A stretch of DNA of 64,000 nt from Eubacterium sp. (GTDB lineage Bacteria > Bacillota > Clostridia > Lachnospirales > Lachnospiraceae): the NCBI GenBank assembly GCA_024681515.1, contig JAILAR010000097.1, forward strand, positions 1 through 64,000, read 5' to 3'. This document shows, one piece after another, positions 26,663 to 49,327 of this stretch; position 1 is the first letter of the stretch, and every line of letters starts with the position of its first letter. The position numbers and the translations under genes are program-made. The notes under the pieces are model-generated. The model was not told the DNA's origin. It made no database searches and worked only from the letters and a program-made list of their open reading frames with translations.

Positions 26663-27454
26663 ATGAATTGTCCGAATTGTGGAACTCCGCTTCCGGATGG
26701 AGCGATGTTCTGTGGCAGCTGTGGGACCCCGCTGGGTCAGCAGGCACAGCAGATGCAGTATCAGCCGGGGATGCAGCCGCAGGGTCAGCCGGGAATGCAG
26801 CCGCAGGGTCAGCCAGGAATGCAGCCACAGGGTCAGCCGGGAATGCAGCCGCAGGGCCAGCCGGAGATGTATGGCCAGTCGCAGCAGGGAATGTACGGCC
26901 AGCCGCAGCAGGGGATGTACGGCCAGCCGCAGCAGGGCATGTACGGTCAGCCGCAGCAGGGCATGTATGGCCAGCCGCAGCAGCAGGGTATGTATCCCCC
27001 GGGATACATGGCACCGAAGCCGAAAATGATACGTGTCCCCAAATATGTAAAGCCTTCGATCTGCCGGATCGTCGGAGCCGTCCTGATCCTGATCGCGTCT
27101 ATCGTACCGGTCTGGTTTGGACAGAGTTACGGCGGTGGATATGCAGGTGCCGGTTTCTTTGTATCCGGCGGCGGTATCCTGGGTCTCTGGGGTGTCCTCC
27201 TTATGCTGACGGCAGTTGCGCTGCTCTTCTTTGAAGTGGATGTAACCGCATTCCGAAATGCACAGGGCAAGTTCCATGCACTGCCATTTGCACGTTTCTA
27301 TCTTCCTGGATTTGCACTGTTCCTTCTGCTGATGGGAACCTTCGCACATTCCGCAGGAACTCACGACATCGGCTGGGGCTGGTGGCTGTGCCTGATCGGC
27401 ATTCTGCTTTCCTGCATCTCTCCGGTGATGGACATCATCCAGGCGAAGAAATGA
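26663..27454 (+). CDS. Zinc-ribbon membrane protein with GQPGMQPQ / QPQQGMYG repeats
   Basis: MNCPNCGTPLPDGAMFCGSCGTPL N-terminus, 8-aa repeats, then TM helices; RBS AAGGAGGG. Confidence 0.85.
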   Translation: MNCPNCGTPLPDGAMFCGSCGTPLGQQAQQMQYQPGMQPQGQPGMQPQGQPGMQPQGQPGMQPQGQPEMYGQSQQGMYGQPQQGMYGQPQQGMYGQPQQGMYGQPQQQGMYPPGYMAPKPKMIRVPKYVKPSICRIVGAVLILIASIVPVWFGQSYGGGYAGAGFFVSGGGILGLWGVLLMLTAVALLFFEVDVTAFRNAQGKFHALPFARFYLPGFALFLLLMGTFAHSAGTHDIGWGWWLCLIGILLSCISPVMDIIQAKK

Positions 27455-27494
27455 TCGCGGAGCGTTTGCGCGAAGTGTGGAATCGCATATATCA

Positions 27495-27519
27495 TAAAAA
27501 AGGCCTTCGGGCCTTTTTT
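27495..27519 (+). terminator. Rho-independent terminator
   Basis: AAAAAAGGCCTTCGGGCCTTTTTT. Confidence 0.9.
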
Positions 27520-27683
27520 ATGTTTATCGACTATTGCAAAAAAATGGTTTTTATGTTAAGTTTTATTGTGGTAAAGGATTGTCTATATTTTTCGGACAAT
27601 CATAAAAGGGGATCCGGCGCGAGCCGGAAATGTGTCCGGCAGGGGACTCTCTGCGGACAGGGTAATCAAAAGGAGGAATCGTT

Positions 27684-28448
27684 ATGAATTGTCCAAATTG
27701 TGGTGCACCGCTTGCTGAAGGTGCAGCATTCTGCGGAACCTGCGGAATGCCGATTCAGCAGCCACAGCAGCCTGGAATGCAGCAGCCGAACATGCAGTAT
27801 CAGCAGCCCGGAATGCAGCAGCCGAACATGCAGTACCAGCAGCCCGGAATGCAGCAGCCGAACATGCAGTATCAGCAGCCCGGAATGCAGCAGCCGAATA
27901 TGCAGTATCAGCAGCCCGCCGGTATGCAGCAACAGTGGCAGGCACAGCAGCCCACCGGTTCATATGCGCCGAAGGGAAACATCATTGAAATGATCAAGAG
28001 CAAGCCTATTCTGATCGTTACATATGTCGGCTTCTTCTTTATCTTAATCACATCCTTCCTGAAGGGATGGGTAACGGCAAACATATACGGTATCACCAGC
28101 AGTGAAGGTCTGCTTGTTACAGGCGGCGGAATCCTGAAGCTGTATGCACTGTTGTTTGCGTTGATCGCGATCTGGGGAATCCTTGTAGAGTTTGGTTCCT
28201 TCATTCCTGCGATCAACGGAATCGTTGATAAGTTTAAGAAGCTTCCGTATTCACAGTTTTATCTTCCGTGCCTTGCGCTTCTCGTATGGCTCCTTTCCAT
28301 CCTGAACGGCGAGTTCCGGGATCTGGTGAAGATCAGCGGTATCCATTACGGAATCTGCATGTACCTCAACATTATCGGTATCCTGATGATCGCGGCTCGT
28401 CCGGTAATTGCACTGATCCAGAAGAAGAATTACTGGGAAGAGGGATAA
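27684..28448 (+). CDS. Zinc-ribbon membrane protein with QQPGMQQPNMQY repeats
   Basis: MNCPNCGAPLAEGAAFCGTCGMPI, four 12-aa repeats, then TMs; RBS AAAAGGAGG. Confidence 0.85.
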   Translation: MNCPNCGAPLAEGAAFCGTCGMPIQQPQQPGMQQPNMQYQQPGMQQPNMQYQQPGMQQPNMQYQQPGMQQPNMQYQQPAGMQQQWQAQQPTGSYAPKGNIIEMIKSKPILIVTYVGFFFILITSFLKGWVTANIYGITSSEGLLVTGGGILKLYALLFALIAIWGILVEFGSFIPAINGIVDKFKKLPYSQFYLPCLALLVWLLSILNGEFRDLVKISGIHYGICMYLNIIGILMIAARPVIALIQKKNYWEEG

Positions 28449-28477
28449 TAAAAAATATAATAAAGATTAAAATAATT

Positions 28478-28516
28478 AAAAGGTGTGTCTGAGCGTATGG
28501 GCACACCTTTTATTTT
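28478..28516 (+). terminator. Rho-independent terminator
   Basis: AAAAGGTGTG..CACACCTTTTATTTTT. Confidence 0.8.
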
Positions 28517-28717
28517 TGCATGAGTAATGAGACATGCAGGACGAATGTATGAATTGCTAACGTATGAAAAATGAACGAAAAAACAAATATCCATGGAAGC
28601 TCCCTCTTTACATCTAATCTCAAATCGTGTAACTTATTATTCATACGGAGGGTCCCATAACCTCGGCAAAGCTCCGGTATGGTCCGGATGTTACACTGAA
28701 GGGGAGGGATAAAAACA

Positions 28718-30052
28718 ATGAGAGGACAGGATCCTTTGGGAACGGGAGGAACCCCGAACCTTTATGATCGAAATAAATATTCGGCAGTGCTGGATGCCAA
28801 TAGTGGGGCACCACCCGGTGGACGGGGAGTGCCCCCGGGAGCATCGATGAACGGTTACGCCGGTTCACCGATGGGCTATCCCGGAGCGCCGACGAACGGT
28901 TACGGAGGATCGCCGATGGGTTATCCAAAAGCGCCGACGAACGGTTATGTCGGTTCACCAATGGGCTATCCCGGAAACCCGATGAACGGCTATGCGGGAG
29001 CACCCGGAAACCCGATGAATGGATATCCGGGAAATCCCACCGGAGGTTACGGTGGTGAGTTCCGGAAGAATTTTATGGGTATGCCGTCCGGAGGTATGAA
29101 CCGCGGAATGGGTACGCCGCAGAACGGTTCGCAGCCACCCGTGAATGCGCAGAGCATTTCCGCAACCCTTGCGGAAATGGAGGAACTCCGGAAAAAGATA
29201 AACTCCCAGACCTTCTGGGCAGTCTTTTCCATGGTTGCGATGTTTATCGTGATCTTCATCCTTCGGATGAATCGAGGAAATCTGAGAAACAATGCGCTGG
29301 TACCGTTGCTTCCTTTTTTCATCATTGCATGTGCGATCGTCTTTGTTTTTGCGTTGAAGGGCGAAAGCGGAAAAAAGAAGAGGCTGAAATATCTTTACAA
29401 GGAAACCTTTGTACGGCAGATGCTGAACCAGCATTTCCAGGATGTGTATTATAACTGGGAACAGGGGATGGATCAGATGCTGATCAAGGCCAGCGGCGTA
29501 TGCAGGTTGGGAAACAGGTATCATTCGGAGGATTATCTGAATGCGGTATATCGTGGAATCCGGTTCCAGCAGGCGGATGTGACGATCCAGTATCACACCA
29601 GCAACGGAAAGAATTCCCATACCACCACCTATTTTCAGGGACGGATGTTCTGCTTTGAATATCCGACGAAGCGAAGCCTGGCGGTGCAGGTTTTCTCGAA
29701 GAATTTCCTGTATGCAGGAGAACCCGGGGGCCGGATCCGAAAGGACAAGCTGCAGATGGAGAGTGTGGAATTCAATAAAGAATTCACGGTGCGCTCGGAA
29801 ATGGAGCATGATGCATTTTACATCCTGACGCCGCAGATGATGGAGCGGCTGATGGCGCTGAAACGGAAGTACGGAAATGTAACGTTGGTTTTTGATCGTG
29901 GGTATCTGATGGTAGGTCTCAATTCGAGGATGGATTCCTTCGATGCGAACCTGCACAAACCCATTGATTATCAAAATGAGATGATGAGGATGCGCGCGGA
30001 TGTGGCTGTGATCGAGGAACTGATCCAGCTGCTGAACTGCATTCCGAACTGA
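28718..30052 (+). CDS. DUF3137-domain membrane protein with Gly/Pro/Tyr/Asn-rich N-terminus
   Basis: MNGYAGSPMGYPGAPTNGYGG repeats, two TMs, then FYILTPQMMERLMALKRKY; adjacent to lemA. Confidence 0.75.
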   Translation: MRGQDPLGTGGTPNLYDRNKYSAVLDANSGAPPGGRGVPPGASMNGYAGSPMGYPGAPTNGYGGSPMGYPKAPTNGYVGSPMGYPGNPMNGYAGAPGNPMNGYPGNPTGGYGGEFRKNFMGMPSGGMNRGMGTPQNGSQPPVNAQSISATLAEMEELRKKINSQTFWAVFSMVAMFIVIFILRMNRGNLRNNALVPLLPFFIIACAIVFVFALKGESGKKKRLKYLYKETFVRQMLNQHFQDVYYNWEQGMDQMLIKASGVCRLGNRYHSEDYLNAVYRGIRFQQADVTIQYHTSNGKNSHTTTYFQGRMFCFEYPTKRSLAVQVFSKNFLYAGEPGGRIRKDKLQMESVEFNKEFTVRSEMEHDAFYILTPQMMERLMALKRKYGNVTLVFDRGYLMVGLNSRMDSFDANLHKPIDYQNEMMRMRADVAVIEELIQLLNCIPN

Positions 30053-48414: not shown

Positions 48415-48513
48415 CAGGAGCGACGATTATTATTCCTAATCGGTCGGAATCAAAGGAGCGTATGAGCACAGAGTAAAAGTTGCTTAAAACTTGCTCAAAT
48501 TATTGTTTGTGCT

Positions 48514-48542
48514 TGACAGTTCGCATGCGATTTGATATTATA
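48514..48542 (+). promoter_or_regulatory. SigA-type promoter upstream of tRNA cluster
   Basis: TTGACA - 17 nt - TATTAT. Confidence 0.75.
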
Positions 48543-48632
48543 TTTAAGCGTTTGAAATCATATGAAAACGCAAAAGCTGATGAAGTCACTGGTTTCGTGG
48601 CATGCGAAGCCTTGGTGAGGGATTCAGGCACT

Positions 48633-48720
48633 GGAGATGTACTCAAGTGGCTGAAGAGGCGCCCCTGCTAAGGGTGTAGGTCGGGGAACCGGCGCGAGGG
48701 TTCAAATCCCTCCATCTCCG
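48633..48720 (+). tRNA. tRNA-Ser (anticodon GCU)
   Basis: GGAGATG/CATCTCC acceptor, CGCCC-CTGCTAA-GGGTG anticodon arm, long variable arm. Confidence 0.95.
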
Positions 48721-48723
48721 TGG

Positions 48724-48835
48724 GTCGTGTTTTTCGAAGAAAAACACGACGAAGACAATTCACGAAGTGAATTGTCACAGTGAAGCTTGACAGCCGCAGC
48801 TGCTGAAAGCAGCGGAGGGTGGCAAGCGGAACTTG
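48724..48835 (+). repeat. tRNA-intergenic structured repeat, copy 1
   Basis: Three consecutive hairpins, homologous to 48945-49056. Confidence 0.85.
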
Positions 48836-48869
48836 CGCAGCTCATCTATGTATGAGTATCAGCGTATAT

Positions 48870-48941
48870 TCCTCGATAGCTCAATGGTAGAGCACGCGGC
48901 TGTTAACCGCGGGGTTGTAGGTTCGAGCCCTACTCGGGGAG
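48870..48941 (+). tRNA. tRNA-Asn (anticodon GUU)
   Basis: TCCTCGA/TCGGGGA acceptor, CGCGG-CTGTTAA-CCGCG anticodon arm. Confidence 0.95.
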
Positions 48942-48944
48942 CAT

Positions 48945-49056
48945 GTCGTGATTTTCAAAGAAAATCACGACGAAGACAATCCGCGCAGTGGATTGTCACA
49001 GTGAAGCTTGACAGCCGCAGCTGCTGAAGGCAGCGGAGGGTGGCAAGCGGAACCTG
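48945..49056 (+). repeat. tRNA-intergenic structured repeat, copy 2
   Basis: Homologous to 48724-48835 with compensatory stem changes. Confidence 0.85.
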
Positions 49057-49086: not shown

Positions 49087-49157
49087 GGTGCTGTAGCCAA
49101 GTGGTAAGGCGTGGGACTGCAACTCCCTGATCATCGGTTCAAATCCGTTCAGCACCT
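49087..49157 (+). tRNA. tRNA-Cys (anticodon GCA)
   Basis: GGTGCTG/CAGCACC acceptor, TGGGA-CTGCAAC-TCCCT anticodon arm. Confidence 0.94.
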
Positions 49158-49160
49158 CTG

Positions 49161-49197
49161 AAAAGCCTTTCGGTTGAATGCCGGAAGGCTTTTTTTG
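49161..49197 (+). terminator. Rho-independent terminator of tRNA operon
   Basis: AAAAGCCTTTCGG..CCGGAAGGCTTTTTTT. Confidence 0.88.
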
Positions 49198-49236: not shown

Positions 49237-49327
49237 GAAGCATGGAATTGAAGCGTGGAATTGAAGCGTGGATTTGAAGCGTGGAATCGAAGTGTGGATT
49301 CGAATCGTGGATCTGAAACGTGGAATC
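49237..49327 (+). repeat. Seven tandem 13-bp units GAAGYGTGGAWTY
   Basis: GAAGCATGGAATT, GAAGCGTGGAATT, GAAGCGTGGATTT, GAAGCGTGGAATC, GAAGTGTGGATTC, GAATCGTGGATCT, GAAACGTGGAATC. Confidence 0.95.

Follow-up and report, generated by a model that had tools for sequence, protein, structure and literature searches.

ERIC/IRU, BOX, and NEMIS-type repeats are structured intergenic repeats of about 100–150 bp that occur in both orientations in gamma-/betaproteobacteria or streptococci; they are transcribed with their neighbours and can be targets of RNase III or alter mRNA decay. RPE-1 is a palindromic repeat similar in size to the element analyzed in the present work, whose closest described kinds are REPs and the Rickettsia palindromic elements. 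REPs lie mostly between unidirectional or convergent genes, show frequent G-T pairs, are thought to act as RNA, encode 20–30 residues when a copy falls inside an ORF, and owe their mobility to hairpin-reading RAYT transposases; Rickettsia palindromic elements, too, occur inside ORFs (PMC3733652).

The DNA considered here (the window) is a stretch of 64,000 nucleotides from Eubacterium sp. harboring a tRNA-Ser/Asn/Cys cluster, which is probably one operon, since a single promoter-like site lies upstream and a single terminator-like site downstream of it (Table 1). Both internal spacers are occupied by a copy of the same repeat, located directly 3' of tRNA-Ser and tRNA-Asn, respectively. The two copies (112 nt each, 221 nt apart) are 92% identical and are found where the original prediction, made from the window alone, had placed them; the three stems that it described, together with the compensatory and wobble differences between the copies, are all present. 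Two details needed revision. The pairing of the third stem is real, but its 6 bp form only the tip of a 43-nt hairpin (P3), and the segment between the second and third stems, although invariant between the copies as stated, is itself paired (GCTTG.CA.CC with GG.TG.CAAGC beyond the third stem).

Table 1. Features of the tRNA operon and of the two repeat copies in the window.
Feature	Positions	Strand	Remarks
Promoter-like site of the tRNA operon, TTGACA-17-TATTAT	48513..48541	+	consensus match only
tRNA-Ser(GCT), flanking gene	48632..48721	+	
Repeat copy 1, tRNA Ser-Asn spacer	48724..48835	+	R1 E 1.6e-31, R2 E 2.5e-19
Copy 1, hairpin P1	48724..48750	+	12 bp, GAA loop
Copy 1, hairpin P2	48754..48776	+	10 bp, GAA loop
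Copy 1, irregular hairpin P3	48785..48827	+	R.R, G.G, GNA/GNA internal loops; tip is the third stem of the original prediction
tRNA-Asn(GTT), flanking gene	48870..48942	+	
Repeat copy 2, tRNA Asn-Cys spacer	48945..49056	+	R1 E 5.6e-31, R2 E 2e-19
Copy 2, hairpin P1	48945..48971	+	
Copy 2, hairpin P2	48975..48997	+	
Copy 2, irregular hairpin P3	49006..49048	+	
tRNA-Cys(GCA), flanking gene	49087..49158	+	
Terminator-like hairpin with T-run after tRNA-Cys	49160..49194	+	consensus match only

Other repetitive sequences were observed in the window: a 13-nt unit (GAAGCGTGGAATT) in seven tandem copies just past the terminator of the tRNA operon (49237–49327), and a cluster of in-phase tandem repeats of 24, 36, and 45 nt (26729–29032), Gln/Pro/Met-rich if translated, which is probably a repetitive coding region.

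The folding energy is −63.7 kcal/mol for the Ser-Asn spacer and −69.6 kcal/mol for the Asn-Cys spacer, compared to −38.7 and −41.3 kcal/mol for their dinucleotide shuffles (z −6.8 and −7.5; none of 200 shuffles was equally good). Such stable hairpins within an operon might terminate or attenuate transcription between the tRNA genes; however, this candidate was rejected because a T-run is absent after every hairpin of both copies, the sole terminator-like site being the one past tRNA-Cys, and we regard it as exceedingly unlikely.

Taken by themselves, the two window copies offer thin covariation (two two-sided pairs), which the wider family makes strong. A BLASTN search with the repeat retrieved no copy beyond the window pair from its own genome and, across 99 relatives, matches in G002 only (a congeneric complete genome), where one copy follows tRNA-Asn and another two (one truncated) separate ORFs reading as fumarase alpha/beta. 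Covariance models were thus needed. The first model (R1), built on the two window and the three G002 copies, found about 20 copies in 10 out of 61 genomes of the genus, among them a pair retrieved by weak matches only; two weak R1 matches (L045 and L046) lacked the architecture and were discarded. The second (R2), a core model from 19 copies, found eight strong copies on six contigs of the window's own genome and, at E ≤ 0.001, matched 16 of the 61 genomes. Seven of these had weak matches of a different structure (L077–L083, E about 1e-5 to 1e-4), without the P3 hallmarks and in four cases in or beside glmS ribozymes; their exclusion leaves nine carriers with about 29 copies, that is, about 27 beyond the window pair. 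PrfB identity to the G036 protein separates 12 genomes (≥91%) from the remaining ones (≤76%), and each of the nine carriers falls into the first group; therefore, the repeat belongs to one clade of the genus.

When 295 genomes were sampled evenly from the order, the window's own genome was the sole one that scored, and the 391 genomes sampled from the class gave no credible copy, one further weak match (L185, E 1.4e-5) lacking the architecture; with samples of this size, only a few candidates are scored in each genome, and weak distant copies could therefore escape. A scan of 257 Gb for exact 18-mer matches returned four, close to the chance number, with neither the structure nor tRNAs nearby. 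Nothing in Rfam 15 reached the gathering threshold except the tRNAs, the best sub-threshold score within the repeat (c-di-GMP-I-GGC, 12.9 bits vs. a cut-off of 59) being at chance level, and no description of the repeat was found in the open-access literature; the family is apparently undescribed.

The glmS-related matches were observed to harbor a different three-hairpin insert (AGGAAAACTGC..GCAGTTTTCCGTAGTAAGC...), located inside or next to the glmS ribozyme (RF00234) on the minus strand, at about 1295–1640, in L079, L081, L082, and L083 (G045, G050, G016, and G006, respectively). The ribozyme match extends over about 280 nt in L082 and L083, the model having 167 positions, and a related sequence lies outside glmS in L077. 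This insert is possibly a sister repeat family tolerating insertion into a ribozyme loop. The glmS ribozymes of relatives, together with the secA-prfB gene order, suggest that the host is a clostridial Firmicute.

The element measures about 85–110 nt; its core is formed by P2 and P3, to which hairpin P1 may be added. In an alignment of 20 distinct copies, which was fitted to the covariance model, 33 out of 37 pairs show two-sided changes and 97.1% of the cells are paired, with a covariation score of 0.66, compared to 0.23 when shuffled and ≤0.15 when slid. From a sequence-only MAFFT alignment of the core, RNAalifold gave the identical structure unprompted, with 17 of 23 pairs compensatory, 96.9% of the cells paired, and 104 two-sided cells against 30 in shuffled alignments. 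P3 comprises, in order, 5 bp, a purine-purine mismatch, 2 bp, a G.G, 2 bp, a GNA/GNA internal loop, 5–6 bp, and a small loop. The mismatch at position 42/74 is A.G in nine and G.A in seven of 19 copies and almost never A.A or G.G, and the internal loop has G.A in 17/19 and A.G in 15/19; this conservation favours a specific three-dimensional fold over the simple correction of a palindrome. A closing helix below P3 (AGN/NCT), compensatory by eye, was left uncounted because its register shifts between subgroups.

Furthermore, G-U exceeds A-C in the stems by 20 to 6 (p 0.009, an optimistic value since the sequences are related), and the sense RNA is stabler than the antisense in 24 out of 25 copies, by a mean of 7.4 kcal/mol where composition alone would give about 3.7. 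These data point to the sense strand, as RNA or single-stranded DNA, as the one carrying the fold. The two-sided pairs, the conserved non-canonical positions, and the excess of G-U over A-C together strongly support selection on the sense-strand fold, including its non-canonical purine pairs; apart from the fold, the sequence varies widely. Of the selection on RNA structure proposed from just two copies, selection on a sense-strand structure is thus strongly supported, and the covariation does extend to the further copies of the family.

Four of the 11 distinct sites are tRNA spacers (Ser-Asn, Asn-Cys, Gln-Lys, and Arg-His, the latter being Arg-Gln in G017). The others lie in protein operons (secA-prfB, rpmD-rplO, fumarase alpha-beta, and rfbF-rfbG), in front of a cobB-like gene, in the gap separating a sugar-transporter permease from a co-directional gene, and inside an iorB-like ORF, the protein gene names being read from the translations. 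All 11 are in the sense orientation and have co-directional neighbours; the two-sided p is about 0.001 on the assumption of independent sites, an assumption that may not fully hold for the tRNA sites. Tandem and truncated copies are present in G002, whose secA-prfB spacer harbors four copies head to tail. The iorB-like ORF (L065 991–1776, minus strand, contig C88 of G000) contains one in-frame copy, and the corresponding extra residues, about 30, are missing from all the relatives compared.

This distribution bears on the proposal that the repeat is a tRNA-processing spacer, i.e., a landing or cleavage site helping RNases to free tRNA-Ser, -Asn, and -Cys from their precursor. The four tRNA spacers, all in sense, and the strong hairpins directly 3' of tRNAs would fit it, but the element is also found in protein operons and in an ORF. 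Moreover, a tRNA role would predict that the element is kept in homologous spacers, whereas the Ser-Asn spacer of 148 nt in the window measures 11 nt in G002, the Ser-Asn and Asn-Cys spacers are of 11 and 3 nt in G009 and of 18 and 20 nt in G028, and unrelated sequences fill them elsewhere (other short hairpins in G036 and G060, a different long repeat in G011, G020, and G013). The proposal is therefore unsupported, and we consider it highly unlikely. As for these other fillings, the Ser-Asn-Cys spacers of L128 (G002), L129 (G011), L130 (G020), and L141 (G013) were seen to hold further long hairpin-rich families, partly tandem (e.g., GGCACGAAGCCCGC...CCCCTCCTTATACC).

A compact conserved fold present in multiple copies might also represent a discrete trans-acting small RNA produced from several loci. 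However, no promoter or terminator belonging to the window copies themselves was found, the sequence outside the fold is widely variable, and the scatter of sites through the inside of operons suits an interspersed repeat better, so that a trans-acting role appears very improbable.

The comparison of homologous sites revealed both filled and empty ones. The secA-prfB spacer is 142–491 nt long with the repeat (G036, G017, G000, G025, G060, and G002) and 15–36 nt when empty (G011, G020, G058, G047, G041, and G018), and the rpmD-rplO spacer is 103–106 nt long in G017, G020, and G011 vs. 19 nt, empty, in G025 and G002. Dispersed copies, filled and empty homologous sites, and covariation assign the element to the general kind of small interspersed palindromic repeats. 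In our opinion, it is likely a clade-specific repeat of the REP/RPE/ERIC kind that resides inside operon RNAs, in folded form, and whose sense-strand fold is under selection. The element would have been copied, by a putative mobiliser, into short spacers separating genes transcribed together, whether in tRNA or in protein operons, and in a single case in frame into an ORF; judging from its position, it would travel as part of the operon RNA, where it would adopt the compact three-hairpin fold. This fold may be kept because the mobilising agent requires it, because only a fully folded, inert insert would be tolerated in an operon RNA (a tolerance that would account for the intra-operon placement), or for both reasons; the decay or cleavage of the cistrons on either side may be affected as a side effect.

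Some observations do not sit easily with an interspersed repeat. The copy number is low (eight in the window's own genome), unlike that of classic REPs, and target-site duplications, sought at the iorB-like ORF and at rpmD-rplO, amounted to short A/G-rich similarities, which are not convincing. Mobilisation by RAYTs, tested through Y1-type transposases (PF01797), is unsupported since none tracks the element: in this non-exhaustive survey of draft genomes they were absent from the carriers G017 and G036 and frequent in non-carriers, with none detected in G017 (100% complete, four element copies) and eight in G009, which lacks the element. The same result weighs on a purely DNA-level explanation, in which template switching at quasi-palindromes or single-stranded DNA transposition keeps the hairpins matched and RNA plays no part. 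The small GNA-type loops, the near-perfect P1 and P2 stems, and the mobility of REPs through hairpin-reading RAYTs (PMC3733652) would agree with it, and a single-stranded DNA fold of the sense strand would yield an equal G-T bias. However, the P3 mismatches are conserved rather than corrected, and the sense orientation in operons would be left unexplained; we judge this explanation quite unlikely.

At the shared sites (secA-prfB and Arg-His), the copies diverge down to 54% identity with the pairs kept, many two-sided changes, and few disruptions, which may reflect maintenance in place, repeated insertion, or a combination of the two. This pattern, a further point against a mere interspersed repeat, also suits a domesticated operon element acting post-transcriptionally at many sites, as an RNase cleavage site or a decay barrier that sets the ratio of the flanking cistrons, and so do the intra-operonic placement, always in sense, and the G-U excess. 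Nevertheless, the presence of the element at a given site is erratic among close relatives and some copies are decayed or truncated, and domestication seems unlikely. A separate observation concerns the Gln-Lys copy, which is 100% identical in L049 951–1180 (G036) and L052 994–1100 (G000), the Arg-His copies of the same two species being 75% identical, hinting at a recent exchange or conversion of that stretch.

An orientation-locked element that spreads via RNA, the folded RNA entering operon transcripts in sense and becoming fixed by way of an RNA intermediate, is improbable; if true, it would explain the uniformly sense insertions in transcription units, the tolerance inside an ORF, and the selected sense fold with its swapped non-canonical pairs.

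Compared to the REPs (GTAG/CGTC), the element shares the dispersal of palindromic repeats between unidirectional genes, the G-T pairs, and the occasional location in ORFs. However, REPs are single palindromes of 20–40 bp, whereas two to three hairpins with internal loops span 85–110 nt here; the constant unpaired GTAG/CGTC tag at the REP hairpin foot is absent from the window copies, which have CACAGTGAAG, a GTAG preceding P3 in some subgroups (e.g., CGTAGGTGAG); and the RAYT association of the GTAG superfamily is missing from the two draft carrier genomes mentioned above. The window's own genome, moreover, has eight copies, and the element shows one orientation only. Differing in size, tag, and transposase, the repeat falls outside the REP definition. 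With the Rickettsia palindromic elements, likened here by description, it shares the in-frame insertion in protein genes, exemplified by one ORF; nevertheless, it belongs to a different bacterial group and nearly all of its copies lie between operon genes. The likeness to the ERIC/IRU, BOX, and NEMIS-type repeats likewise concerns their general description, and the sense-only orientation sets the element apart from them.

According to these data, the repeats represent a well-supported and apparently undescribed structured family that can be searched for with covariance models, and they reveal that strong covariation between tRNA genes can stem from an interspersed repeat rather than from a tRNA-linked function. 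Sites with and without the element (tRNA operons, secA-prfB, rpmD-rplO, and a single ORF) offer a natural comparison for the effects of folded inserts on operon RNA, and the same comparison bears on the cause of the uniform orientation of the copies.
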